From: Phytopythium helicoides
Taxonomy: Eukaryota > Oomycota > Peronosporomycetes > Pythiales > Pythiaceae
Reading direction: 5' to 3'
Assembly: GCA_024867545.1 (NCBI GenBank)
Contig: JANFNE010000006.1
Coordinates: forward strand, 620,001 to 684,000
Length of the DNA: 64,000 nt
Made by a program: the position numbers and the translations under genes. The notes beneath the pieces were generated by a model, which saw only the letters and a list, made by a program, of their open reading frames with translations, had not been told where the DNA came from and ran no database searches. Shown here piece after piece: positions 1-16,655 of this stretch. Within the stretch, counting starts at the first letter, position 1. Every line of letters begins with the position of its first letter.

Positions 1-1
1 T

Positions 2-3000
2 AGAGCTGCGCCGGAGCGCATCTTGCTGAGGTCGAACGAAATCCGACCGCTCAACAGAGTTGCAGAAACACCAGACCATGTCGTGCGAGTAGAAGATTCG
101 GTGTTCGTGAGTACCACCGTCGCAGTAGAACCTCGGAAGTCGCAAGTCAGAAGACAAGCCGACTCCACAGTCGAGTTCGACCGAGGGGCAACTGCAGAGG
201 AGGTCGACCGCGAGCCGTCAGAAGTATTAGAAGGCAACCTCGCACGCGTAATGAGAGCAGAAGCGGTGCAATCTACAGAAGCACCAGCGGTATTCCTTCG
301 TGAGGGAGAGGACGCAATATTGTTGCACGAGCTGCGTGACCAGTTGGCGACGTTGCCAGACCTTCCAGATCTGGCACCGACGGCTGACATCGAAACGGCC
401 GATGTTGGTACACCTGGGGAGACGTCTCCAGGGCAGGAAGACAAAGTCCGAGAGATACTACGCCGTCACAAGAGCGCCTTCTTAGGTGAGGGTAATGCGT
501 TGCCACCACCAGCTCGAGGTGTGACTTGCGATCTTGACGTTCAAGGGGCGAAACCTATCGCACAGCGTGCCAGGCGTATACCGCCACAGTACCTGCGTAA
601 GGTGTACGATCTGCTCAAGAAGCTACTCGAGAGCGGCCTGATCGAGTTCTCGGACTCTCAGTGGGCCTCCCCAATCGTGATTGTGCTCAAGAAGAATGGC
701 AAGGACATCCGCCTCTGCATCGACTACCGAATGGTCAACCAGCTCCTGCAACTAGACCTCTACCCAATGCCACTAATCGACGACCTGCTGGATAACTTCG
801 ACGAAGTGATGTGGCTGGTGAGCCTCGACATGGCGAGCGGGTTCTGGGCAGTGCCACTGACTGACCGTGCAAGAAGGATATCGGCATTCATTTGCCCCCT
901 CGGTCATTTTCAGTGGACCCGAATGCCCTTCGGCTTAAAGAATGCACCACTCGTGTACCAGCGAGTGCTCGACAACTGCCTGTGGGGGTTTGTACGACTA
1001 CCGCCTGAGCTCGAAGCACAAGCTGACCCTGATGTGCGCGAACATTACCACTTGAATGTGGGTTCACAGCAGAGCGACTCGGAGGATGCAACTGCTGCTG
1101 AGGGAGATGGTCCTTTGACCGTCTTCCAGATCAACCGGCCAGCGCCACCCCGGATGGGGCCGGTGCTCGGCCGCAGCAGCTATGTTGACGACGTCGCCTT
1201 CGGGGGCAGAGACTGGGACGAGATGTGTCACAAGCTGGATGAGCTGCTGTACCGTCTGCGGTACTGGGGTATTTCGGTGAGCCTGCCCAAGAGCGTGTTC
1301 GGCAAACGAGAGGTTGACTTCCTGTCACACCGCGTGAGCCGTGAAGGCATCCAAGCCACGCCAAAAATCGCAAAGTCCGTGCGTGAAATGCCGTTTCCCT
1401 CCACACTCAAAGGCGTTCAATCGTTCTTAGGAAGCATCAACTATTACGCGAAATTTATCGAGGGCTTGCCCTTGATCGCGTCGGTGCTCTACGAGTTGAC
1501 GGAGGACCAGGTGAAGCACCAAGAAGGGCTCGACAAGGCAAAGAGAGCGTTCGAAATGCTGAAGGAGAAGATCACAGCTACGCCACTTCTAAGACATCCA
1601 GACCGCGCCAAGCCATTTGCAATCATCACACACTCGAACGACTGGGCGGTCAGCGCAGTCATTGCACAAGAGTATGATGGGATGCTATTTCCGGTACGGT
1701 TCACAGGAAGGGTGTTACACGGCGCTGAGATCAACTACCCAGCTGCGGAAAAGGAAATCCTCGCGTTGTTCCGCTCTCTAGAAGTCTACCACACTCTCCT
1801 GCTTGGGCAGAAGCTCAAAGTCTACACGAGGCACTCGACGCTAAGTTGGTTGTTCAAGTCTAAGTCGCTGAAGAGAAGATGCCACCAGTGGGCAACAATG
1901 CTGTCTCCATGGACAATGGAAGTGATCCAGCTACAGAAGGACGCTGACGGGCTGGCAGCTATACTGAGCGCCAGCATCACTCCTCGCGAACACCTCGATA
2001 GGGTTGTCGAAGACCTAGTCCCGCAGAAAGTGCTCAAAAAGCCGGCACCTGCGGTCAGCATCGAAATGCTGGAGGAGAATTATAGAGGTTGGCTGCTGAC
2101 GTTCGATGGCGCTGCCAAGTTGAAGTCTAAGGTGGGAAGTGCTGGCTACGTCTTGTGGAAGTTACCAGAATGGAAGATTGTCGAAGCTCATGGCGACTAC
2201 CTGACGGACGATTCTGTGACGGTGAACGTCGCCGAATACCATGGGCTGATAAGTGGACTCACACTGGCACTCAAGAGGGATGTGAAAGAGCTCGTTGTTG
2301 TAGGTGACTCGCGGTTAGCTATACAGCAAGCGCAGGGCGTGATCAATTGTCACGACCCGAAGTTGGCGCTTATGCTTGCCCAAGTCCGCACGCTCCTCGA
2401 GAAGTTTGTTTCAGTACAGCTGATTCACGTGAAACGGGAATTCAATGCCGCGGCAGACCACGTTACCACGCGTGTATTGCACCACGCCGCGTCACTCGAA
2501 ATCCGTGACTCAATGGAGCTGGAGCTACTCGAGAAGCTAAATCGCCTGCCAGAGCGCCTGACCAAACCTCCACCGCCGAGAGAAGTCCTCGACAAGCTAC
2601 CGCCACCCGATGAGACGGTTGGCGACGACGAAGCTGGCGTGTTCGCGGTGCAAACCCGCTCCCGAGAGCGAAGGGCACAAGACTTACCTGAGGGAGTGAC
2701 AGAAGACCCAGATATCGCCGTGGAAACGCGTTGGGAACGCATTCGTGTGAACCAGGACGCAGAAGAGCCTCTACGAAGGCTCAAAGCATTTCTACACGGC
2801 AATCTGAGCGAATTGACCCAAAGGGAAGTTCAAGAGCTGGCCAAAGTCGCCGACCGTTTCGTCATCGACGAGCGAGATGTGCTATTCTACCTGCCCACGA
2901 CCAGCCCGAAGCGGCCAAGACCTGCGCAAGATCACCCACGATTAGTTGTCCCACAAGAGCTGCGCAACGACCTACTCCAACAGTACCACGAGGACAAGCA

Positions 3001-4414
3001 AGGAGGCCACCAAGGAATTCTTCGCACTTTCGAACGCCTCAAGAAGGACTTTTACTGGCTCGGAATGTACGCGGATGTGGAGAGATACGTTAAAGAATGT
3101 GTCGATTGCACGACCGCCAAGGGAGTACCTCGCAACCCAGGACCGTCACCTGGCAATCTGCTCGCTGAGGAACCATTCCAAGTTGTCTCAATGGATTTTG
3201 TACTGCCATTACCACGAACAGCCAAAGGAAACACAGCATTATTGCTGTTTCAAGATACTTTTTCGGGCTACGTGATGTGCAAGCCAATGAGCAGCACCAC
3301 TTCGCAAGATGTTGCTGAAGCGTATGAGGAATGTGTATTCCAACACTTTGGAGCGAGCTCCAAGTTGCGGCATGACCGCGATCCGCGGTTTATGTCTGAC
3401 GTGTTCCGACAATTTAGAGAGCTACTTGGCAGTCAGCAGAGATCCACACTCGCTTACAGACCGCAAGCAAACGGCCAACAAGAGAGGTCCGGACAGACAG
3501 TGGTGCGGAGCATACGTGCGTATATCGCAGAGGCAGATCAGAGCGATTGGGACGACATTGTCCGCCGTCTGATGTTCTGCATTAACACGTCATACGATTC
3601 TACCCGCAGAGAGACCCCGTTCTATCTCGTCCACGGATGGGATGCCAGAACGACGGTGAAAGCAATGCTCGGGAAGGTACCTCGGGGCGTAGATGCAAGG
3701 ACAGCTTATCTCTGGAGGGCGAAGATTCAGCGCGAATATGAATATGCGAAGGCGTGGGCACGCGACCTGCAACGAGAAGCAAAGCGGCAGCGAGCGGAAC
3801 AGCAGACAGAGCTATGGAAAGCCTTGTCCGACAAGTTTTAGGATGGTTTCGGCATCGGCGATGCTGTGTGGTTGTATATGCCACGTGTCCAACCGGGCTT
3901 GAGCAAAAAGCTCGCCCACAAATGGCACGGACCGTTCAGAATTGTTGAAAAGGATTCCGACTTCCGCTACAAGCTGCAGATCGAAGGATCTACCTACCGC
4001 TTCTATCCGTGGGTGCACGTGAGTCGCCTCAAGCCGCGCTTGTTACACGAAAATCGCCCGAAAGAGACTTTGCGAGATGTGCCAGAGCTGTTTGATTTCG
4101 ATGCTGCTCTACTGCCGGAGGACAGTTGGGTCGACGAGGAGAGTGGTGATTATGAGGTCGAGAAGCTATTGGACGTGCGCGTGGTGAAGAAGACAAGGAA
4201 TGCGAGACAGATGCGCGAATACCTGGTGAAGTGGCGCGGATACGACGAGACAGAATGGGTACCGCTGGAAAGACTGAATTGTGGGCAGCTTCTATACGAG
4301 TTTGACAAAGTGAATCGCTCCAGAGCTAGATTTCGGTCGATGCAATCTGCAGACGAGTTCTCGAGTGCACAAGGTGAAGAAGACGAACGACAAGGTGATC
4401 GGCAGCGTCATTAG
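2..4414 (+). mobile_element. Ty3/gypsy chromodomain retrotransposon pol, left-truncated, with one in-frame stop
   Basis: Polyprotein that copies element RNA into DNA and integrates it. The frame is open to the left edge, so gag and the 5' end lie outside. Numbering from base 23: reverse transcriptase about 185-460 with SYVDD at about 386-390; Ty3-type RNase H about 530-620; a second RNase H about 688-820; integrase from about 970 with the HHCC finger, D in SMDF, D in HDRDPRF and E in QQERSG. A TAG at 3839-3841 interrupts the frame just after the integrase. The same frame then runs to 4414 and encodes a chromodomain (EYLVKWRGYDETEWVPLE). The first RNase H has lost expected Asp residues (THSN for TDAS, TRH for TDH) while the second keeps its acidic set. 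The identity is clear; whether the copy is active is doubtful because of the stop. Confidence 0.93.
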
Positions 4415-5062
4415 ACGCAGTACTCGCTCAGAAGCTGAACAGACGAACGAAGAAAAACACACAAAAATGCATGTTAACGGTGGCCGAAAGGCACTGTCGC
4501 CCGGAGTGGCTCCGATTCCCTGGCGGAATCTCGTCCCAGGTGGACAACTGCATGTATCGCTTTTTCAAGATTTCAAGTGTCGTATGCAGCAAGGAAGATG
4601 GAGACCAGAGAAGAAGAACTTGTGAGTTGCTGGTCAAGATGAGAAGAAAGAAGAAAAACTGAAGATGAAGAGTGCAAGAGGCTGACTTTATTGATTAGGA
4701 AGAAATGGAACGCAACAGCTACAGCCAAAAGCAACCTCGACAGGCGTGGATGCACGAACGACCTCTTGGGAGACTCAGAGCGCAACGCAGCAGCTCACGG
4801 AGTCAAGTGGAAGACTTCAAAGGTCCCGCGGATACGCGTGTGGTGAGCCACTATGAGACGACACGTTCTCGTCGTCGTTCTCGGTCTCCTCAGCACTGTC
4901 GCCGGATCCTTCCACCTCCACAACGGATGCTGGACTGCTGCTTGCTGAAGTGACTGACCGACTGCTCTCGTCGCTTCGAGGACTAATTGGACGACGTTGT
5001 CGGCGACGCCGGCCTCTTTGAGGGGTTTCCGATGGCTTCAACCAGCCGAGGCCTTCCCATGG
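4415..5062. other. Non-coding spacer between pol and the antisense ORF
   Basis: No convincing coding frame. The stretch is purine-rich around 4600-4700 (several AGAAGAA-type runs) and could hold part of the element's 3' untranslated region. I see no LTR boundary here. Confidence 0.5.
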
Positions 5063-7444
5063 CTAGCCGTCCTCACCAGTGATGGTGCAGTCGATGTTGT
5101 CAGCGACGACGCGAGCCTCCGACCAAGTGTCGACGCACGGGACCGGCCGAGTGTACTTGCCCGCGACAAAATTGCGAAGGCGACGCTCGAGACCACCTCT
5201 CTTCATGTCCTCGTGCACGTGCTCAAAGAACTTGGGGAATCCGACCTCATCCGTGGAGTAGCCAAATCGAACTGGCTCCAGAGCGTCGATCTCGCGAACA
5301 AGCTGGATGAGCCGGGGGCGCTCTTCGACTGGGAGGTGAGAGTTGGCTGGGGGGACCCAAGCACACGGCTGCAATGGGACGACCCAAAATGCCGGTTCAC
5401 ACCAGAGCCGCATGCGCATGTCGCGAAACTTGACGCCGTAAGTGTGCGAGAAGCCATTCTCAAGAGTCTCAAACTTGGCCACCAAAGCTTGTCGACGTTG
5501 AGCGCGAAGGTAGTAGATGCTCGACTTGTTTGACGATTGCGGGATGGGTAGCCAATGCAGGCTTTCCCAAAACGCACGCTGATGGAGGAACATGAAGTCC
5601 CAAATGACTGGGGCGATCTCCTTCACCATCGAATCCTCAGGGTCGACCAAGAAGAGTGTCTTCACGCGGTCTCGGAACATCCGTCGCCACGGTCGCTCGC
5701 GAAGCAGCTCCACATACTGTCCAGAGTCGTACCGTTCGTACACGGTTCCGGTGAAGAAGTTTGTCAGACAATAATCCGGATACCCTGAAGTCTGCACAGA
5801 GAGGAGACCAAGCTTGAGCTGCGACTCGAAAAACTCTTGGCGAGGGACGTCACGATACTTGAACCGACGGACCAACTCAGGATCACCATCACGAGCCGTT
5901 GCTCTAGCGACATCTCGAGCTCCCTGGTTCGCCACACCAAGTCCTCCGCGACTACCGGCGGCAACTTCAACTTGGTCACGAGCTTCACCGGCAGATAAAG
6001 GAACCTGGTCTGCAGGAGCAGCGTCGACAACGCCGCCTGGAGAGGGAACTGGACTATCGTGAGCGGTGCCTTGTAAACCGTCCTCATCTTCTACCGGCGT
6101 GCCACCTCCAAACTCATGCTCCTCAGCAAGAGGAGAGCGATCCCGACTTGGGGAGGAGGTTGACACGGCATCTTGGAGACTGGACTGGGGCGCCGAAATC
6201 TCGACTGGGTCTCCACGCAAACCAGAGTCCTCCACAGCATTGCGTCGACGAGAGTGATCTTGAGAGGAGTGAGAAGAAGAGCCGCCAAGCATCAAGAGCG
6301 AAGATGCACCACGCTGAGAGCTGTCATCGATGCCAGCAGCACTTCCAACTTCGTGAGCTGGTGAACAAGGTGGAGAGCCGAACCATTCCGACGGAGAACC
6401 AGGAGGCGAAGCCACGCCATCGTAGTCGAGTGACGCAGCTTCCGGACCGAGTGCCGTGACGGCGATGACGGTTTCCGCTTGGACGAGCTGGGTGGCATCC
6501 CGCTGAGCGTAGCGCTGCAACAAGTCTTCGAGGCGCGAACGGTGTCCTGTGACCTTGGCGTTCGACGTCAAGTACTTGTAGAGCCCAGTCGGACTCTGCA
6601 GAGGTACTCCACGAAGCCTCTCGAGCTCACGCGTCAAATCCTGGATGTGGCGACCCTGGTCAACAAGAAGGGCCTCCGCTTGTTCCGCGCGGCGCGTCTG
6701 CGCTGCAGCAGCGTCCGTCGCCGACTTGACTGCGTCTTCGAGCGAGCGAACCTTGGCTTCGAGGTCCACGTCCGTCGATGTACGCTGCCGCTTGGACGCC
6801 CGCTGCTCACGCGCGATCTCAGTGACCACCTGAAGGAGCTTGAGAGTCCGAAGCAGACGCGAGACGAACCCTTCAGCACGCCAGTACGTGAAGAGCAGAT
6901 CGCCCTCGAGGTGGTCGTAGCTGACCGAGGTCTCGAACGCACCCGGCGGCAAGCGCGAGCCGAGAAGCGTGTCCTCGAGGTCTTCGACATCGAGAGCTTC
7001 AAGAAACACGCAGTCGTCGAGCGAGAAGTGGGGAACGCGCTGGAGGACACACGGGCCAGACGGAGTGTCCATGACTTCGCGCTGGTGGTTGTGCACGTCC
7101 ACGTGCACGAGCAAGCTGTGGAACGGGCTACTGGGACCAACCGGAGACTCCGAGAACGTCGCCACCTCGAGCTTGCTGGGGTCGAGAGCCACAAGTGAGC
7201 GCCGGCGCACGACTGGCTGCTCCATGTCGACGTCTTGGTCAGAATCGGCTGTGGCAGCTCGCCGCTTGCCGCGATCTTGAAGCGACGGACTCACGGCTGA
7301 CGCAGTTGAAGCTGCTGGCGCTGTTGAAGCTGCCGGCGCCGCCGGTGCTGCCGAAGCTGGAGAGACTGGGGCGCTGGCGCGCGCACGCGCAATCCGCTGC
7401 GCTGGCCTTGGGCTGTCTTGTGCCCGCGCGGCGCGCTTGGTCAT
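5063..7444 (-). CDS. Large antisense ORF of unknown function, 793 aa, next to gypsy pol
   Basis: Not recognised. The first ATG of the open frame is at 7444; the frame itself stays open to 7510. The N-terminal quarter is disordered and rich in Ala, Pro, Ser and Arg. A heptad-like coiled coil follows (around LEAKVRSLEDAVKSA, about residues 230-290). Then comes a long Ser/Gly/Asp-rich linker, and a C-terminal third of about 240 residues that looks globular, starting at FKYRDVPRQEFF and rich in Trp, Phe and Arg. No zinc knuckle, protease, polymerase or nuclease motif is visible. It lies between pol and a possible LTR, on the opposite strand. Antisense ORFs in that position are known in some plant Ty3/gypsy elements; that this is one of them is inference. 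A captured host gene or an ORF of another nested element are alternatives. Confidence 0.6.
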   Translation of the reverse strand: MTKRAARAQDSPRPAQRIARARASAPVSPASAAPAAPAASTAPAASTASAVSPSLQDRGKRRAATADSDQDVDMEQPVVRRRSLVALDPSKLEVATFSESPVGPSSPFHSLLVHVDVHNHQREVMDTPSGPCVLQRVPHFSLDDCVFLEALDVEDLEDTLLGSRLPPGAFETSVSYDHLEGDLLFTYWRAEGFVSRLLRTLKLLQVVTEIAREQRASKRQRTSTDVDLEAKVRSLEDAVKSATDAAAAQTRRAEQAEALLVDQGRHIQDLTRELERLRGVPLQSPTGLYKYLTSNAKVTGHRSRLEDLLQRYAQRDATQLVQAETVIAVTALGPEAASLDYDGVASPPGSPSEWFGSPPCSPAHEVGSAAGIDDSSQRGASSLLMLGGSSSHSSQDHSRRRNAVEDSGLRGDPVEISAPQSSLQDAVSTSSPSRDRSPLAEEHEFGGGTPVEDEDGLQGTAHDSPVPSPGGVVDAAPADQVPLSAGEARDQVEVAAGSRGGLGVANQGARDVARATARDGDPELVRRFKYRDVPRQEFFESQLKLGLLSVQTSGYPDYCLTNFFTGTVYERYDSGQYVELLRERPWRRMFRDRVKTLFLVDPEDSMVKEIAPVIWDFMFLHQRAFWESLHWLPIPQSSNKSSIYYLRAQRRQALVAKFETLENGFSHTYGVKFRDMRMRLWCEPAFWVVPLQPCAWVPPANSHLPVEERPRLIQLVREIDALEPVRFGYSTDEVGFPKFFEHVHEDMKRGGLERRLRNFVAGKYTRPVPCVDTWSEARVVADNIDCTITGEDG

Positions 7445-7655
7445 CTTGGCGCTTCCAGTCGGTTGGTCGCGTGACTCGCGATTCGCGCAATGCCTCAACG
7501 CTCGCCGCACCCGACCAACGGGGCGGTTGTGATGAAGCGCTGCAGCTGGAGCTGGGAAAGGCCTTCCTGCAGAGGCAACTCAAAGCGTCTGTGACGCGCG
7601 CACTCTCGACTTCAGTATCGGAGGTTTTCTCTAGGATAAAATATAGCTCCTTAGA

Positions 7656-7712
7656 CCTCTCTTGGGGAAGTACCCCTAGAGAGGTACTCCTGTACCCTCA
7701 AAAAGGGTACAG
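7656..7712. repeat. Two consecutive stem-loops
   Basis: 7656-7684 folds CCTCTCTTGGGG onto CCCCTAGAGAGG (11 of 12 pairs, 5-nt loop). 7690-7712 folds CTGTACCCT onto AGGGTACAG (9 of 9, 5-nt loop). They sit just before the LTR-like block, at a place where a retroelement would have its polypurine tract and LTR edge. They may act in RNA or as transcription stops; the function is inferred only. Confidence 0.6.
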
Positions 7713-7714
7713 GA

Positions 7715-7973
7715 AAGAGTTGGTGTGGGCCACACCGCTCACCAAAGACGGGCTGGCCTCCAGACTGGCTTCCCATGGGTTCAGTATCAGGTCTCTATCA
7801 TCAGAGCTGCAAGTATAAAAAAGTAGAGGTAGCAGAGACAGTAAGACTGTCAATACAGACTTCCGCTTTCTCCCTCAATCGCGCACGCTGGAGAACAAGC
7901 TCCCCAGGGAGGAAATCCTTCTTGGGGCTTGAGGAGGTCATCCGCGCGTCAAGTCAAGTCCAACACCCGAACG
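7715..7973 (+). repeat. Probable LTR-like block with TATA box
   Basis: The block starts near the imperfect palindrome GTGTGGGCCACAC. It contains a TATA-type sequence (GTATAAAAAAGTAG around 7812) and ends just before an exon-like GAACG followed by GTAAGT. The layout fits U3/R/U5 of an LTR. I cannot see a second copy in the window to fix its ends, so the boundaries are approximate. It could be the 3' LTR of the element on the left or the 5' LTR of a second, truncated element on the right. Confidence 0.35.
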
Positions 7974-8535
7974 GTAAGTGCTGCGTGTAAGCACGTGCAT
8001 TTGCTGCTTGGTTTCATATTCTCGGCGTGGTGCTGGACGGTCGCTTGGGTGTAGCGACACGTCTGGCATTGCTGCTGACTTCATATTAAGAGGAGGATCA
8101 GGGGGGTTCAGCGGAGCCCCTCTGGCTAGATAGATCCGCGTTTTGGCTGCGAGGTCCGGCAGAGCCTCAGCAGCGTCATACCCATCTGCCTTTGTGGTTC
8201 CCTAGCCGGAAACAGCTAGTGGAACCACCCCTGTGTGTACTCATATCGTTTGTTTGTTCAGGAGAAGAGGGAGGAAGCGCCGTCGCCTGTGCCGACCGCC
8301 GACTCTTACGCGTGCGTTTAGAGCTCCTGGTCCCCCGGACGGAGCCTACGGGGATCACAACGCTCCGGTACTGACCAAGCGAGCCCAAGCCAAGAGCCTC
8401 CTCAGGGAGATCAAGACCGAAGCTCGCTGCGAGAGGGGTGAGACTACTCCCCCAGGGGTGAGACTACTCCCCCAGCTCGCCTATCGACCCGTCATGGAGG
8501 GCGCCGCATCATCACATCATCGCAAATCAAGATAA
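7974..8535 (+). other. Retroelement leader-like region with possible intron and start of an ORF
   Basis: GTAAGTGC at 7974 matches a strong splice donor, and a pyrimidine-rich TTTGTTTGTTCAG near 8250-8262 matches an acceptor. The open stretch after it (to 8535) encodes a short Arg/Pro-rich peptide and includes a perfect tandem 20-bp duplication (8435-8454 and 8455-8474, unit begins GGGGTGAGACTACTCC). This may be the leader and gag start of a truncated element. It has no recognisable domain. Confidence 0.3.
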
Positions 8536-8587
8536 GAAGAGTACACGTCATGAAGAATCAAAACAACAAGCATCTATTCTCGTAAAT

Positions 8588-9470
8588 CTATTTACGCTGC
8601 AACTCAACCCGGCGGACGAAGAGCAACGCCTCGAGCCAGTCACACAAGAAGTCATCGAGGAGCTCTCGCGTCGTCCCAGCATCAGTGGCGAAAGACCCCG
8701 CAGTCTCAACCTCCAAGAGGAATGCGTGAGCGAGGCGCTTTGGTAACGGGAAAGCCCCAGCGCAGATGTATACCCCACAGGGTAACCCCAGGCTCGCGAT
8801 ATAACCAAGAGCCCGACGACCAGTGACGCTTCCAACAACCAGGTTACGGTCGAGGGTATCCTGGGACAGCTCGGGTAACCCATGAGCCCGCGCCCTGGAG
8901 TTGGCGAACTTCACAAAACGTCGCAGGGTGGGCCACACCACAGGTGACTCGTCACCTGAGTTACGCAGGCCGGAAGAAAGAAACTCTTCAACAACGGTTG
9001 CCGAAGACCAGGCGCAGTGCGCCCACAACTCTTGCAGCAGCTTCAAGCGCTTCAAACCCGCAGCGGCCACTTGGCGACGCGCGGATTGACAGTGGGATGC
9101 TCCGTTCACGACAGTACGTCTCGAAGCGTAAGGGTTGAAGGGGTTGTGGATGTTGGTCTGCGCAGGTCCGGAAGGCGCCGACGACATCAAGGTCGTCACC
9201 CAAGCTTGAACACTCTCGCAACAACCAGACGCGAGGCTCCCAAGTTGACTGGCCGCGTTTCTTCCGGTTGCGGGGCAGCGCCCACACGACGCGGTATTCG
9301 TACGCGCCGGGCCTGCCCCTGCGGTCAACCACAGACCAGATCGACCAGCGCTTCTTGGGATTTACCCGGGTCGTGCCTGGCGTCGACTTCCGGGCGGCCG
9401 CTACGGACAGCTGCATACGCGGCCCGCAGCCGCCGGTCGACTTGCGCGCATTTTGCTTGGTCCCCGTCAT
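8588..9470 (-). pseudogene. Histone-H3-tail mimic + chromodomain-like + Cys-protease-like ORF, one frameshift
   Basis: From ATG at 9470 the frame reads like a histone H3 tail: TKQNARKSTGG corresponds to H3 residues 3-13, then PR-QL and AARKSTP correspond to residues 16-20 and 24-30. The Lys positions equivalent to K4, K9 and K27 are kept; those of K14, K18 and K23 are not. A chromodomain-like segment follows (YEYRVVWA ... STWEPRVWLL). Next is GRCGFEAL (Cys codon at 9060-9062), which resembles the catalytic Cys motif of OTU-type proteases. The frame stops at 8988. A second frame, overlapping and open to 8588, continues with WPTLRRFV and a GVYIC ... LAHAFLLEV block (His codon at 8726-8728) that would suit the catalytic His. 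One small indel near 9000-9060 explains the split. It is antisense to flanking gypsy remnants. The H3 similarity is read directly; the protease assignment is inference. Confidence 0.6.
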
Positions 9471-9639
9471 GGCCACGTTGAGCGTCAGCAGAAGCCGACA
9501 CGAGACCAAGGATCTCCCGCAACGTCTCGGCGCACAACAGCAGGACGCAAGCACGGTCGCGACGAGAAGTTCTGGTGACACCCGGGTGAGTAGTACACGG
9601 TTGGTTTGGTTGTGCTAATTGTTTTCCAGCCTCGAAGAG

Positions 9640-9773
9640 CGCCCACGTCCTCGAGCACGCTCGGCTTGAACGCGTTGAAGTCGCTCGTGCCGGCCGAGGA
9701 CGCGTTGAAGTTGTCTTACCGGCCGAGGACGCGAGTGTGCCACAATTGGCAGGTTATCAGCTCAAAAGGGGGG
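9640..9773 (+). mobile_element. 3' end of a gypsy element: internal tail and polypurine tract
   Basis: This tail contains two imperfect units ending in CCGGCCGAGGACGCG, then GGCAGGTTATCAGCTC and a polypurine tract AAAAGGGGGG (9764-9773) directly before the LTR. The arrangement is that of the 3' end of a plus-strand gypsy element whose body is missing or replaced. Confidence 0.55.
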
Positions 9774-9990
9774 TGAGTGTATGAGATATCCAGTTAGAGC
9801 CGGTATACACATGGTATTAGATATTAGAGTAAAATAGAAAAAGGGAGACGTACAGCCATCTCAACGGATGGCTGGAACTCCCTGCTGGCGGGACGGCATC
9901 ACTCCGGAACTTGCCCGCCAGCGCACAAGCCAAGCTCTTCTCCTTCTCCTCCTTCTCCTCCTCCTCTTCGAGGACGGGTTTGCATCATGC
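9774..9990 (+). repeat. Gypsy 3' LTR (solo or truncated)
   Basis: Begins TGAGTGTATGAG right after the polypurine tract. Inside are two stem-loops, 9853-9860 with 9867-9874 (CAGCCATC/GATGGCTG) and 9884-9892 with 9914-9922 (GCTGGCGGG/CCCGCCAGC), and a CT-rich run at 9935-9970. The 3' edge is estimated from where sequence related to the sugar transporter begins; no partner LTR or target-site duplication is visible in the window. Confidence 0.55.
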
Positions 9991-10049
9991 AGCATGTGAT
10001 TTGAGGTGAGTTCCGATCACGAAATGCGTAGTACGAGCTTAGTGATCAC

Positions 10050-10722: not shown

Positions 10723-11012
10723 GCCGCTGCTGCTGCTGCTGCTGCTGTCCGGTTCACGAGGAGCTCCGATTCTGGATTGGCTGAAACTGCGCGCGCAGCA
10801 GCATAGCAAGCACAGCAAACACACACAGCCTCGCCAATCAGACGCGACTCACTCGCATTACGCCACGCACCCTGCAGCTGCTGCACGCTCTCGCCATGAC
10901 GCAACGCTTGCTGACTGCAAAATCCGCCATTCATTCATTCGGACAGGCTGAATACACGCTACGCTGCTGCTGCTGCTGTTGCTGCTACTGCTACTGCTGC
11001 TGCTACTGCTCA
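10723..11012. repeat. CTG/CAG trinucleotide runs flanking the transporter promoter
   Basis: CTG-rich runs at about 10723-10747 and 10963-11012 bracket about 215 bp containing the transporter's CCAAT boxes. In the two other tandem units the same place has one merged CTG run and the bracketed DNA is absent, as expected from recombination between the runs. Confidence 0.75.
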
Positions 11013-11017
11013 CTCAC

Positions 11018-13354
11018 TCACTTCTGGTGGTTCTGGTTCTCGCGCTCCTGCAACTGCCGGCGCAGAATCTTGCCGGACGCAGACTTGGGGATCACGTCGA
11101 TGAACTCCACCTGACGAACCTTCTTGAACGGAGCGACGTTCTCGGCGACGAAGTCCATCACGTCCTGTTCCGTCAGGCCAGCCGCGTTCGCGGGGTCCTT
11201 CAGCACCACGTACGCCTTGGGGATCTCCTCACCGAACGCGTCCTTGCCACGCACACAACACGCGTCCTTGATCTGCGGGTGCTTGTTCAGCACGTCCTCG
11301 AGCTCGGCCGGCGCCACCTGGTGACCCTTGTACTTGATCAGCTCCTTCAAGCGGTCCATGATGAACACGAAGCCGTCTTCGTCGATGTAACCAATATCTC
11401 CCGTGCAGAGGAACCCGTCCTCGGTGAACACGTTCTTGTTGGCCTCCGAGTTGTTGGAGTAGCCGATCATGACCTGCGGTCCTCGGTAGAGGAGTTCGCC
11501 TAGCTCACCGACAGGGAGATCTTTGCCAGTCTGTGTGCATCGTACGCGGAGCTCCGTGTTGGGCACGAGACGTCCGACACTCCCCTGTTAGTTGAGGAAG
11601 TGTTAGGCATGTGGGTATGTTGATTGGAATTCACAATCGAAAGTACTGCGTCGTCGCAGACTTACCGGTTTGAAGTACGAATCTTCGCTGAAGTTGACGG
11701 CTGGGGACGCCTCCGTCATGCCGTATGCTTGCTTAACGTTAACTTTCAGTCGGTTCTTGACGAGCTCCTCAACTTCTTTTCCCATAGGCGCTCCACCGGA
11801 GACCAGGAACTCTGTTGCTGACAGGTCGTAGTTTTCGACCATCGGGTTGTGAGCAAGGAAAAGTGCCACAGGGGGTGCAATGTGAGCGATGCGGATCTAA
11901 TGAGTATATAGAGGATCAGTTTGCATGAAGTCAACCCCACTGTAACATTCGATTGTTGCTGTACGAACCTTGTATTTCTCAAGCGTCTGAAGGAACAATT
12001 CAGGGTCAAAGCGCGGTAGCACAACCTTAGTGGAACCTTGCAGCATTGACAGATTCAGCATCATCATGCCATAGATGTGAAAGAACGGAAGAAGTCCCAG
12101 TGCGTGATCCCCTAGCTTCTCAACATGGTCTACTTGAAGAGCATTTGCCATCATGTTTCGAGCACTCAGAGCAACACCCTACAAACAAACAACAACCTCG
12201 TCAATCAACAAAAGCAAACAATCGACAAACCTAAACAACCATCGAACGGTACCTTCGGCACGCCAGTGGTTCCGCTCGAAAACGGCAGCAGCACATTCAG
12301 CTCCGGGTCGATCTTCTCGAACTGAAACGACTCGAACTCGCGCTCTGCCATCTCGCTGCAGTGGAAGTGTAAGTGAGTATTGGTGATGCAATCAGCAGTA
12401 GCGCGTTTAGTGAAATCGCAAGTCAGTCCATGCACGACGTACTTGATATGCCTGCTCGGCGCGTGCACCTCATCTGCCGAGCCCATCGTGTAGACGTAGC
12501 GCGAGTCGATCCCAGTGAGCTTGGCGGCGTCCAGCGCCACCTGCTCGAGCTCCTTGTGCGTGATAACGTGCTTTGCCTGGGAGGAAAGCGCACCATCCAT
12601 CCGCGGTCAGTTCGCTATCAACAGCATAATCACACGTACACACACACACACACATGTGCGTGCGCGCGCGCGTGTGTGATCATGAATGGTGTAGATAACT
12701 CACCTTGGCTTCGCGGATCTGAAGCGCGAGTTCGTCAGGGAGAAACATGGGCGACGCTGGCGAGCAAATGGCTCCAAGCGACGTCAGGGCTGTGAGGATG
12801 CAAGATCGTCAGCAACGACAATGGGAAAGTAGTAGGTTGATATACGCAGTTCCGCAATTCCGCACCGAGAAGAACCATCGGGTACTCGATGCAGTTGAAG
12901 GAGTGCACGATGACGGCCTATACGATCGATTGAGCCCATTCAGTCAGTCAGTCAGTTGTCCAGTCTATCAGTCGCAGTCGCGTGAGACCGAAAATGGGGG
13001 CAGCCCACTCACCTCTCCCTTCTGGACGCCGTCCTCGGCCAGCGCGACGGCGAGGCGGCGCGAGCGGTCGTATAGCTGGCGGAAGGTGACGCGCTCGTGC
13101 TTGACGCCGCAGATGAAGGCCGTCTTGTCTCCGTTGGTGGCGGCCTGCTCCTCCACGACGTCCCAGATGGTCTTGTTGGGGATGTCGATCTCCGGGTGGG
13201 GCGAGCGGTGCACGATGGTGGAGAAGTCGAGCGCCGAGGCGACGCGAGCGACCGCCAGTGGCCGGCGACCCGCGCGCAACGCGGCGGCGGGCGGCGCGAC
13301 GCGGGCCGAGAGCGCGCGCGCGGCGCGGGAGGCGAGCAGGCGGCGCGCGAGCAT
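11018..13354 (-). CDS. 4-coumarate:CoA ligase-like acyl-CoA synthetase, copy 1
   Basis: ATP-dependent activation of a carboxylic acid to its CoA thioester (ANL superfamily). Eight exons join in phase: 13013-13354, 12866-12917, 12704-12789, 12443-12576, 12253-12355, 11969-12178, 11666-11896, 11018-11584; 574 aa. The P-loop-like PFSSGTTGVPKG spans the exon 5/6 junction (about residues 229-240), YGMTEASP is at about 367-374, GDIGYIDEDGFVF and the hinge DRLKELIKYKG are in exon 8, and the catalytic Lys is in SASGKILRR near the end. The start at MLARRLL is chosen because all three copies are conserved from there. The first 45 residues are rich in Arg, Ala and Ser and look like a mitochondrial presequence; there is no C-terminal peroxisomal signal. 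Exons 6-7 differ from copies 2 and 3. The true substrate is unknown; fatty, aryl or bile-acid-type acids are possible. Confidence 0.88.
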
Positions 13355-13667
13355 CGGCGACAGGCGGCGGGCGACGGGCGGAGGGAGCGTGGGAGGGCGG
13401 CGCTTGCGCAGGAGGCGGGGAGTTGGCGAATGACGCGCAGGGGCCAAGGGCGGAGGTGTTGACGAGACCCCATGGGGTCGGGAGGTATCGTGCGAGGGTA
13501 GTTGAACCTCGCGGTTTCGTTGGCGTCGTGGCCTCCAGTTAACGTTTGTGGTAAAGATATTGAATATAGTAGGGATATATGTTGAAAGGAGTGTTTCGCT
13601 TAATAAAGTAGAGATTGAGGTATGAGGGATTGAAGGATATAGGAAACAAGCGGGACTTGAAGCGAGA

Positions 13668-13961: not shown

Positions 13962-14151
13962 GGCGATCGACGATCGGCGTCTCGTTTCCGTTTCCGTTTC
14001 CGGTGGTGCGTAGCTCGGCAAGGGAACTCAGGCGAGGAGAGCACAGCAGAGTCCCACGTCCGTTGTTGTCCGACTTGCTGTGTCGCTGCCGCTGTCACTG
14101 CTGCTGCTGCTGTTGCTGCTACTGCTACTGCTGCTGCTACTGCTCACTCAC

Positions 14152-16484
14152 TCACTTCTGGTGGTTCTGGTTCTCGCGCTCCTGCAACTGCCGGCGCAGA
14201 ATCTTGCCGGACGCAGACTTGGGGATCACGTCGATGAACTCCACCTGACGAACCTTCTTGAACGGAGCGACGTTCTCGGCGACGAAGTCCATCACGTCCT
14301 GTTCCGTCAGGCCAGCCGCGTTCGCGGGGTCCTTCAGCACCACGTACGCCTTGGGGATCTCCTCACCGAACGCGTCCTTGCCACGCACACAACACGCGTC
14401 CTTGATCTGCGGGTGCTTGTTCAGCACGTCCTCGAGCTCGGCCGGCGCCACCTGGTGACCCTTGTACTTGATCAGCTCCTTCAAGCGGTCCATGATGAAC
14501 ACGAAGCCGTCTTCGTCGATGTAACCAATATCTCCCGTGCAGAGGAACCCGTCCTCGGTGAACACGTTCTTGTTGGCCTCCGAGTTGTTGGAGTAGCCGA
14601 TCATGACCTGCGGTCCTCGGTAGAGGAGTTCGCCTAGCTCACCGACAGGGAGATCTTTGCCAGTCTGTGTGCATCGTACGCGGAGCTCCGTGTTGGGCAC
14701 GAGACGTCCGACACTCCCCTGTTGGTTGAGGAAGTGTTAGGCATGTGGGTATGTTGATTGGAATTCACAATCGAAAGTACTGCGTCGTCGCAGACGTACC
14801 GGCTTGCGGTAAGTGTCCTCACTATAATTGACGGCTGGCGACGCCTCCGTCATGCCGTATATTTGCTTGACGGTAACCTTCAGTCGGTTCTTGACGAGCT
14901 CCTCAACTTCTTTTCCCATAGGCGCTCCACCGGAGACCAGGAACTCTGTTGCTGACAGGTCGTAGTTTTCGACCATTGGATGATGAGCAAGGAAAAGAGC
15001 CACAGGGGGTGCAATGTGAGCAACACGGATCTGTTACAACGTAAATGATAGTTAGCTCCTGCTACGATCAAGTACCACATAAATAATGCCATTTGTACCT
15101 TGAACTTTTCAAGCGTCTCAAGAAAGTTCTCCGGCTCAAAGCGCGGTAGCACGACCTTTGCAGACCCCTGAATCATCGACAAGTGCAGGAGCATCATGCC
15201 GTAGATATGGTAGAATGGCAGAAGACCCAGTGCGTGCTCGCTCAGCTTCTCAACATGGTCTACTTGAAGAGCATTTGTCATCATGTTTCGAGCACTCAGA
15301 GCAACACCCTACAAACAAACAACAACCTCGCCAATCAACAAAAGCAAACAATCAACAAACCCAAACAACCATCGAACGGTACCTTCGGCACGCCAGTGGT
15401 TCCGCTCGAAAACGGCAGCAGCACATTCAGCTCCGGGTCGATCTTCTCGAACTGAAACGACTCGAACTCGCGCTCTGCCATCTCGCTGCAGTGGAAGTGT
15501 AAGTGAGTATTGGTGATGCAATCAGCAGTAGCGCGTTTAGTGAAATCGCAAGTCAGTCCATGCACGACGTACTTGATATGCCTGCTCGGCGCGTGCACCT
15601 CATCTGCCGAACCCATCGTGTAGACGTAGCGCGAGTCGATCCCAGTGAGCTTGGCGGCGTCCAGCGCCACCTGCTCGAGCTCCTTGTGCGTGATAACATG
15701 CTTTGCCTGGGAGGAAAGCGCACCATCCATCCGCGGTCAGTTTGCTATCAACAGCATAATCACACGTACACACGTACACACACACATGTGCGTGCGCGCG
15801 TATGTGTGTGTGATCATGAATGGTGTAGTTAACTCACCTTGGCTTCGCGGATCTGAAGCGCGAGCTCGTCAGGGAGAAACATGTGCGACGCTGGCGAGCA
15901 AATGGCTCCAAGCGACGTCAGGGCTGTGAGGATGCAAGATCGTCAGCAACGACAATGGGAAAGTAGTAGGTTGATATACGCAGTTCCGCAATTCCGCACC
16001 GAGAAGGACCATCGGGTACTCGATGCAGTTGAAGGAGTGCACGATGACGGCCTATACGATCGATTGAGCCCATTCAGTCAGTCAGTTGTCCAGTCTATCA
16101 GTCGCAGTCGCGTGAGACCGAAAATGGGGGCAGCCCACTCACCTCTCCCTTCTGAACGCCGTCCTCGGCCAGCGCGACGGCGAGGCGGCGCGAGCGGTCG
16201 TATAGCTGGCGGAAGGTGACGCGCTCGTGCTTGACGCCGCAGATGAAGGCCGTCTTGTCTCCGTTGGTGGCGGCCTGCTCCTCCACGACGTCCCAGATGG
16301 TCTTGTTGGGGATGTCGATCTCCGGGTGGGGCGAGCGGTGCACGATGGTGGAGAAGTCGAGCGCCGAGGCGACGCGAGCGACCGCCAGTGGCCGGCGACC
16401 CGCGCGCAACGCGGCGGCGGGCGGCGCGACGCGGGCCGAGAGCGCGCGCGCGGCGCGGGAGGCGAGCAGGCGGCGCGCGAGCAT
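14152..16484 (-). CDS. 4-coumarate:CoA ligase-like acyl-CoA synthetase, copy 2
   Basis: Same exon plan as copy 1: 16143-16484, 16000-16051, 15838-15923, 15573-15706, 15383-15485, 15099-15308, 14800-15030, 14152-14718; 574 aa, no stop or frameshift. Exons 1-5 and 8 are almost identical to copy 1. Exon 6 differs at about 11 of 62 compared residues (for example LSEH for LGDH, FYHIYG for FFHIYG) and intron 6 is unrelated, so the middle of the gene has a different history. Exon 7 has EDTYRKP for EDSYFKP. The ANL motifs SSGTTGVPK and YGMTEASP and the C-terminal catalytic Lys are kept. Mitochondrial presequence as in copy 1. The 3' flank is the merged CTG run followed by the transporter remnant. Confidence 0.88.
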
Positions 16485-16655
16485 CGGCGACAGGCGGCGG
16501 GCGACGGGCGGAGGGAGCGTGGGAGGGCGGCGCTTGCGCAGGAGGCGGGGAGTTGGCGAATGACGTGCAGGGGCCAAGGGCTGAGGTGATCTGGCCGTGA
16601 GATCTGGGCGGTATGAGTTCATTAATTGAAGGCTTGGTTTGGATAAAGGAATGGA

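Follow-up and report, generated by a model that had tools for sequence, protein, structure and literature searches.

It has long been asked whether transposons use proteins of their own to counter chromatin silencing. The locus described here raises this question in a concrete form: what could a gene whose product begins like histone H3 do in a retroelement? The window, i.e., the whole 64,000-nucleotide stretch of Phytopythium helicoides DNA that was analysed (on contig C57), carries this gene on its minus strand. The ORF product has three parts: at its start an H3-tail mimic, then a chromodomain-like domain, and lastly a hydrolase-like domain with a conserved Cys and His.

Anatomy of the antisense ORF

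The window ORF starts with an ATG at 9470, and its translation begins MTGTKQNARKSTGGCGPRMQLSVAAARKSTPGTTRVNPKKRW. The first open frame (8988..9470, minus strand) encodes 160 amino acids, has its stop codon at 8988-8990, and ends just past a Cys block, GRCGFEAL. The initial methionine and H3 positions 1-32 occupy 9372..9470 (minus strand), as read from a phmmer search against PDB sequences and from a codon listing. The search gave a best E value of 6.7e-8 and 135 matches at E<=10, and the 60 of these matches that were listed are all histone H3 types, aligned within residues 1-51. The window tail is also identical to the host H3 gene L011 at 21 of 32 positions. These two results confirm the H3-tail order that the initial annotation had read from this ATG, and they argue that the resemblance is not due to chance. 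Overlapping open frames are common in the window, and a GC-rich frame might resemble H3 by accident, but this reading is vanishingly improbable, being refuted by the E value of 6.7e-8 and by the finding of H3-like tails in 9 of the 11 genome places described below. The residues had been correctly assigned as well: K9 and K27 are present in ARKS contexts, and K14, K18, and K23 are absent. K4 is also retained. The C-terminal histone fold of H3 was not found in the window ORF. Since the listed PDB matches end at residue 40-51 and a chromodomain-like region follows, the product is not a histone. A further observation at the nucleotide level is that 18 bases of the window (9429-9446, CGC AAG TCG ACC GGC GGC) are identical to the host H3 gene L010.

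The chromodomain-like region (RWSIWSVVDRR...YEYRVVW...STWEPRVWLLREC...; 9186..9350, minus strand) was delimited by hhalign with a five-row family alignment (A5), which contains the window ORF and four natural relatives and was compared with four HP1/Polycomb/CBX segments and two chromodomains of integrases from the same genome. Over 49 columns, the comparison reached a probability of 91.4 (E = 9.2e-7), versus at most 2.95 for 100 column-shuffled controls. Against the HP1 set alone, the family scored 93.2, and against the two integrase chromodomains alone 34.9; among subsets of the family, the Gypsy-type rows alone gave 86.5 and L009 alone 34.1. Pfam returned no family for the window frame at E<=10, and PF00385 was absent from L009 at E<=10 and from L005 at E<=1. 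Despite the negative Pfam result, the profile-profile comparison bears out the chromodomain-like block proposed initially. Of the three aromatic residues that we take to form the methyl-lysine cage, two are visible by eye in the A5 hhalign alignment and the third is missing.

The rest of the protein, the C-terminal hydrolase-like part, is encoded in a second frame (8588..9043, minus strand; GVYICAG...LAHAFLLEV) that ends in a natural stop codon at 8588-8590. Cys137 of the GRCGFEAL block corresponds to 9060-9062 in the first frame, and the His of the LAHAFLLEV block to 8726-8728 in the second, with the frame break located between 9043 and 8988. The two blocks are split by one frameshift in the window, as had been claimed, and they lie in one natural frame in L005, L006, and L009. 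The window copy is broken, and the full protein is probably no longer made from it. When three natural relatives are aligned, the 30 invariant columns include one Cys, in DGDC/GGRC/DGRC, and one His, in RHC/LAHA/LAHP, with no clear third residue. This conserved pair is what the proposal of an OTU-type Cys/His protease rests on, and the enzyme class has no profile behind it: Pfam gave no accepted match to OTU or any other protease for the window frames, L009, or L005 (the sole match, of the second window frame to Phage_lambda_P, is sub-threshold at E = 0.024), and a three-sequence profile retrieved no PDB match at E<=10. Folding of the window frames as single sequences yielded mean pLDDT values of 42 and 34, too low to inform. 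The C-terminal part can be called putatively hydrolase-like at most, and the labels of OTU protease and deubiquitinase are unsupported.

The carrier retroelement and the insertion nested in it

The ORF is located in the 3' internal part of a Ty3/Gypsy element (the region from pol to the 3' LTR; 8521..9777, plus strand), with a polypurine tract at 9764-9773. The 210-bp 3' LTR (9778..9987, plus strand) is identical at 210 of 210 positions to the 5' LTR found at C57:609068-609277 (L048 3068-3277), and the target site duplication (TSD) TGCAG is present at 9988-9992 and at L048 3063-3067. The gag-pol region lies outside the window, at C57:609-614 kb. The sequence L045 (C57:612001-620000) begins inside this pol, which encodes RNase H, integrase, and a terminal chromodomain-like stretch, and the frame ends at L045 2149. 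Pfam identified RH-IN in the pol of L045; in the C16 copy it detected PR together with a portion of RT, and the PR-RT frame of the window element (L048 4112-5998) was read by eye only. The chromodomain-like stretch at the C-terminus of pol matches Pfam Chromo with E = 3.2e-4 and 21.0 bits versus a cut-off of 25.1. With its LTR pair, TSD, polypurine tract, and PR-RT-RH-IN, the carrier is a recently inserted Ty3/Gypsy element that was later split by a younger one. Because the LTR, TSD, and polypurine tract set the boundaries, the ORF can be placed, in antisense orientation, in the interval that separates pol from the 3' LTR in a recent insertion.

The linkage to a retroelement asserted in the initial annotation holds for this carrier, but the piece nearest to the ORF in the window (1..8516, plus strand) is the 3' part of a different element, a younger and nested Ty3/Gypsy insertion, which starts at C57:614174 (L045 2174) and measures 14.3 kb in all. 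Its pol frames are found at 2-3838 and 3842-4411, and its 3' LTR (7528-8516) is identical to its own 5' LTR across 989 bp, followed by the TSD TCAT at 8517-8520. Since the LTR begins at L045 2174, has an identical 989-bp partner, and is accompanied by this TSD, the first 8516 bases of the window are the end of the 14.3-kb nested insertion.

An open frame of 838 amino acids (5063..7579, minus strand) runs antisense to the nested element's pol. It was considered as a partner of the H3 mimic and rejected: it is not part of the mimic and belongs to the younger nested element. The genome search gives at least 23 stretches matching this ORF, its relatives (L036-L044) are tail-to-tail with the C-terminus of a nested-type integrase in 9 of 9 copies examined, and no Pfam match was found for it. 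Judged from these relatives, the 838-aa ORF appears to be a second conserved antisense gene in the Gypsy elements of this genome.

A family of H3-mimic genes in the genome

A search of the 49-Mb genome located the family in at least 11 places besides the histone genes, the window included: C57 (window), C16 (L002), C45 (L003), C40 (L004), C1:558k (L005), C68 (L008), C10 (L006), C49 (L007), C79 (L009), C28 (L016), and C1:1216k (L046). The matches in C14 and C46 (L010 and L011) are host H3 genes, and that in C4 (L047) corresponds to an H3 gene that lies beside H4 and whose frame is broken; all of them were excluded from the 11 places. The homologues implied by the initial proposal do exist elsewhere in the genome, and the uninterrupted one is the C79 copy, a single frame of 515 amino acids with the tail VRIKQHAKRSTGGKAPRKQLAKAAARVV. 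Its order is tail, chromodomain-like region, Cys block DGDC, GVYLVD...RHCMALRVD, and an acidic/basic tail. From the tail through the chromodomain to the Cys block, it shares 28% identity with the window ORF over 158 columns (tblastn against the fetched loci, E = 2.7e-8). In L046, the tail is followed by a chromodomain-like stretch read across a stop codon and a frame break. The C28 place (C28:162382-162666; L016/L032) is an isolated frame of 95 amino acids that combines an H3-like tail with a weak chromodomain-like stretch (MACTRQTAKRSSGGRAPRRNL...), next to what is presumably a WD-repeat-like gene; this frame may be either a relic or a host gene.

Wherever the fetched DNA contains the family pol (5 of 5 copies; C57, C16, C1, C40, and C68), the ORF is antisense to pol, downstream of it, and tail-to-tail with it, the 3' LTR boundaries having been read for the window copy. 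No pol match was found in the fetched DNA of C10 and C49, which are outside this count. Some 3.5 kb from the C45 ORF, and on its strand, lies a pol of another kind (34% identical), which was not taken as its carrier. All five copies counted with their family pol carry a damaged ORF.

The C79 copy has another neighbor. A LINE ORF2 (endonuclease plus RT) lies antisense and tail-to-tail to its ORF, the two ends being about 250 bp apart, and on the other side of the gene there is a truncated 18S rRNA (L009 3158-3783; Rfam RF01960 positions 4-605). This setting suggests an insertion into rDNA, and the C79 ORF is likely to be part of the LINE, at this one locus. Neither of two relatives of this LINE (40% identical, in C56 and C98) coincides with an H3-mimic match in the genome search. 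The C79 gene could instead be a resident chromatin gene of the host, either the source of the retroelement copies or domesticated from them, as its open frame, its being single in the searches made, and its added acidic tail might suggest. We regard this as very unlikely, given the mobile-element setting beside truncated 18S rDNA and the absence of a relative from a protein database that includes Phytophthora proteins.

A recognizable H3 tail is found in 9 of the 11 places, and none was recognized in C10 and C49; the view that the homologues share an H3-like N-terminus holds for the former but not for the latter. The tail copies share ancestry, so that the residue counts are not independent events. 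Lysine is retained at K4 in 3 of 8 tails (L004 being unreadable there), at K9 in 1 of 9, at K14 in 4 of 9, at K18 in 7 of 9, at K23 in none of 9, and at K27 in 7 of 9, the positions after 21 having been read in another frame for L008, and the L046 tail having an in-frame stop at position 22. Position 9 is R in five tails, M in two, W in one, and K in one, that of the window, and four tails have K8-R9 (AKRS) where H3 has R8-K9. In a typical tail of the family, much of the A7/S10-L20 core (STGGKAPRKQL) is retained, as are K18 and K27, whereas K9 and K23 are replaced and R is often found at K4. The window copy is opposite to this trend, with K9 present and K14 and K18 absent. The kept K9 ARKS context, noted initially for the window copy, is consequently not family-wide, and a methylated ARKS read by the protein's own chromodomain is not the family rule, with K9 kept in 1 of 9 readable tails and K18 and K27 in 7 of 9 each. 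Since K9 is replaced, the family tail looks like an H3 tail that is unmethylatable at K9 rather than a methyl-K9 ligand that the protein's own chromodomain would bind.

Constraint between copies and possible functions

Selection between copies was estimated as dN/dS (NG86, in-frame codons, bootstrap 5-95% ranges in brackets). The window gave 0.16 (0.09-0.25) against L003 over 128 codons (tail, 0.13; 0.07-0.31), 0.17 (0.10-0.27) against L005 over 105 codons (tail, 0.22; 0.09-0.41), and 0.23 (0.15-0.34) against L004 over 139 codons (tail, 0.35; 0.15-0.70), and its C-terminal part 0.24 (0.16-0.36) against L005 and 0.26 (0.14-0.41) against L006, ratios that are rough because several dS values are above 1. 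The comparisons of the first frame with L009 (131 codons, 0.66) and of the window with L008 (0.41-0.46) rest on alignments that are poor or frame-shifted. Between the tails of L005 and L009 (25 codons), there are 11 codons with synonymous changes only and 5 with amino-acid changes. In the closest pair, window and L002, the ratio is 0.63 (0.32-1.46) over 93 codons of tail plus chromodomain, 0.88 (0.33-3.72) for the tail, and 0.11 (0.03-0.28) at the C-terminal end. There is protein-level constraint between divergent copies, with individual copies damaged.

These values bear on the possibility that the ORF is a functionless passenger, i.e., a host gene with H3 tail and chromodomain transduced by retroelements, the similarity between copies reflecting replication only. 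The damage of the ORF in all five copies with pol in view, including the recent window copy, and the tail ratio between the window and L002, compatible with neutrality, are in favor of this idea. So is the distance of the tails to the host H3 gene L010, dS being lower for the window (0.54) and L002 (0.41), and also for L004 (0.64), than for L003, L005, and L009 (1.3-1.4). The passenger explanation is nevertheless improbable, as the divergent copies, compared in the first frame and the C-terminal part, give ratios of 0.16-0.24 and the C-terminal end of window and L002 gives 0.11, values that argue for constraint, and the tail-plus-chromodomain layout recurs in four sequence groups (Gypsy, C79, C28, and C1:1216k, grouped without a tree). 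A local re-copying or gene conversion of the window tail from a host H3 gene is possible.

The explanation that we favor, with about an even chance of being right, is that a Ty3/Gypsy LTR retrotransposon carries the ORF as an accessory gene, opposite in strand to gag-pol, and that the encoded tail would engage the enzymes or readers of the H3 tail. An antisense transcript arising in or near the 3' LTR would probably make the protein. Its H3-like N-terminus may then be held by the host proteins, enzymes or readers, that usually bind the H3 tail, so that the protein might compete with this machinery or divert it at newly made copies, as an anti-silencing decoy or scaffold. Being unmethylatable at position 9, the tail is easier to reconcile with a decoy or blocker than with a ligand of the protein's own chromodomain. 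Several facts speak against this explanation: C10 and C49 have no recognizable tail (2 of 11), and the tails differ at key lysines; the ORF of a recently inserted element is broken, so that it may be dispensable or supplied by other copies; the chromodomain similarity is weaker in subsets (34.9 and 34.1); and the ratio for the closest pair, window and L002, is 0.63 with a range that spans 1, those of the window against L009 and L008 being 0.66 and 0.41-0.46.

A wider version of the favored explanation, which we propose only tentatively and rather doubt, is that two unrelated classes of oomycete elements, Ty3/Gypsy and LINE, share an antisense-encoded false-tail protein, unmethylatable at K9 (R/M) and joined to a chromodomain-like reader and a hydrolase-like domain, that would block or redirect the heterochromatin machinery of the host. 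If true, the false-tail protein would represent transposon-borne counter-silencing via histone mimicry.

The best-kept positions of the tail allow another reading, to which we assign a fairly low probability, in which the protein would be a scaffold or recruiter instead of a decoy: the tail would serve as a docking site for a HAT or bromodomain (GK14AP/K18), drawing activating or integration factors. S10-L20 and K18 are among these positions, and K14 is kept in 4 of 9 tails, although it is lost in the other 5. The chromodomain-like end of the integrase of the same element (Pfam Chromo, E = 3.2e-4) might even bind the mimic, which would then act as an adaptor or regulator of integration, but the substitutions at K9 would weaken binding by an integrase chromodomain that reads methyl-K9.

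Searches for a decoy or accessory protein of this kind in other organisms gave no relatives. With the L009 ORF, 0 of 6,634 candidates in the protein database were accepted at E<=1e-3, and with the L002 ORF, 0 of 428. As a control, the carrier pol matched 4,400 proteins at E<=1e-20 among 7,989 scored in the same database, the best being 75% identical and from Phytophthora. Organisms related to the host are therefore represented in the database, and the mimic is missing from it, unpredicted there, or beyond the word and length filters. None of the pattern matches in viral contigs, 6 in one search and 154 in another, was confirmed.

No transposon-encoded H3-tail mimic was found in the open-licence literature, as covered by titles and abstract beginnings. 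Influenza NS1 and G9a are mimics of histone H3 segments. The 'oncohistone mimic' EZHIP, whose K27M-like motif inhibits PRC2, is similar to the H3-mimic ORF in being a non-histone protein that copies an H3 segment; it is encoded by a host gene of mammals and its mimic is short, whereas here a tail of about 30 residues is found in a retroelement and K9 rather than K27 is replaced (PMC12713659). In the plant Ty3/Gypsy elements Grande, RIRE2, and Retand, antisense ORFs with a TRP28 domain have been described between pol and the 3' LTR, and a regulatory role has been suggested (PMC11963269). These Retand-type ORFs are like the H3-mimic ORF in their accessory position and orientation, but their common domain is TRP28 and the word 'histone' is absent from that text, whereas here there are an H3-tail mimic and a chromodomain-like domain (PMC11963269). 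TRP28 (PF04195) gave no Pfam match in the window frames, L009, or L005. Genes placed antisense and downstream of pol, as known from plants, are also present in oomycete-type Gypsy elements, and two separate families of them meet in the window.

The oomycete element Chronos and other aRNH/chromodomain Ty3/Gypsy elements captured a chromodomain (PMC5348765). The words 'histone' and 'antisense' do not occur in the text of that article (PMC5348765), and the H3-mimic element differs in having an H3 tail and an antisense ORF. ORFs common to unlike retroelements have been reported in bdelloid rotifers, a case that is similar to the present one in that one type of accessory ORF is found in different retroelement classes (PMC5408684). 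The rotifer ORFs are of the GDSL, DEDDy, and coiled-coil types, with no 'histone' in the text of the article, whereas the ORF described here encodes an H3 tail (PMC5408684). A constrained transposon-encoded H3-tail mimic beside two retroelement classes would permit a peptide-level test of whether transposons counter silencing with their own proteins.

Elsewhere in the window, a tandem duplication was observed between 10964-13458 and 14098-16588, which are 95% identical over 2.5 kb; we take the duplicated gene to be AMP-forming ligase-like.
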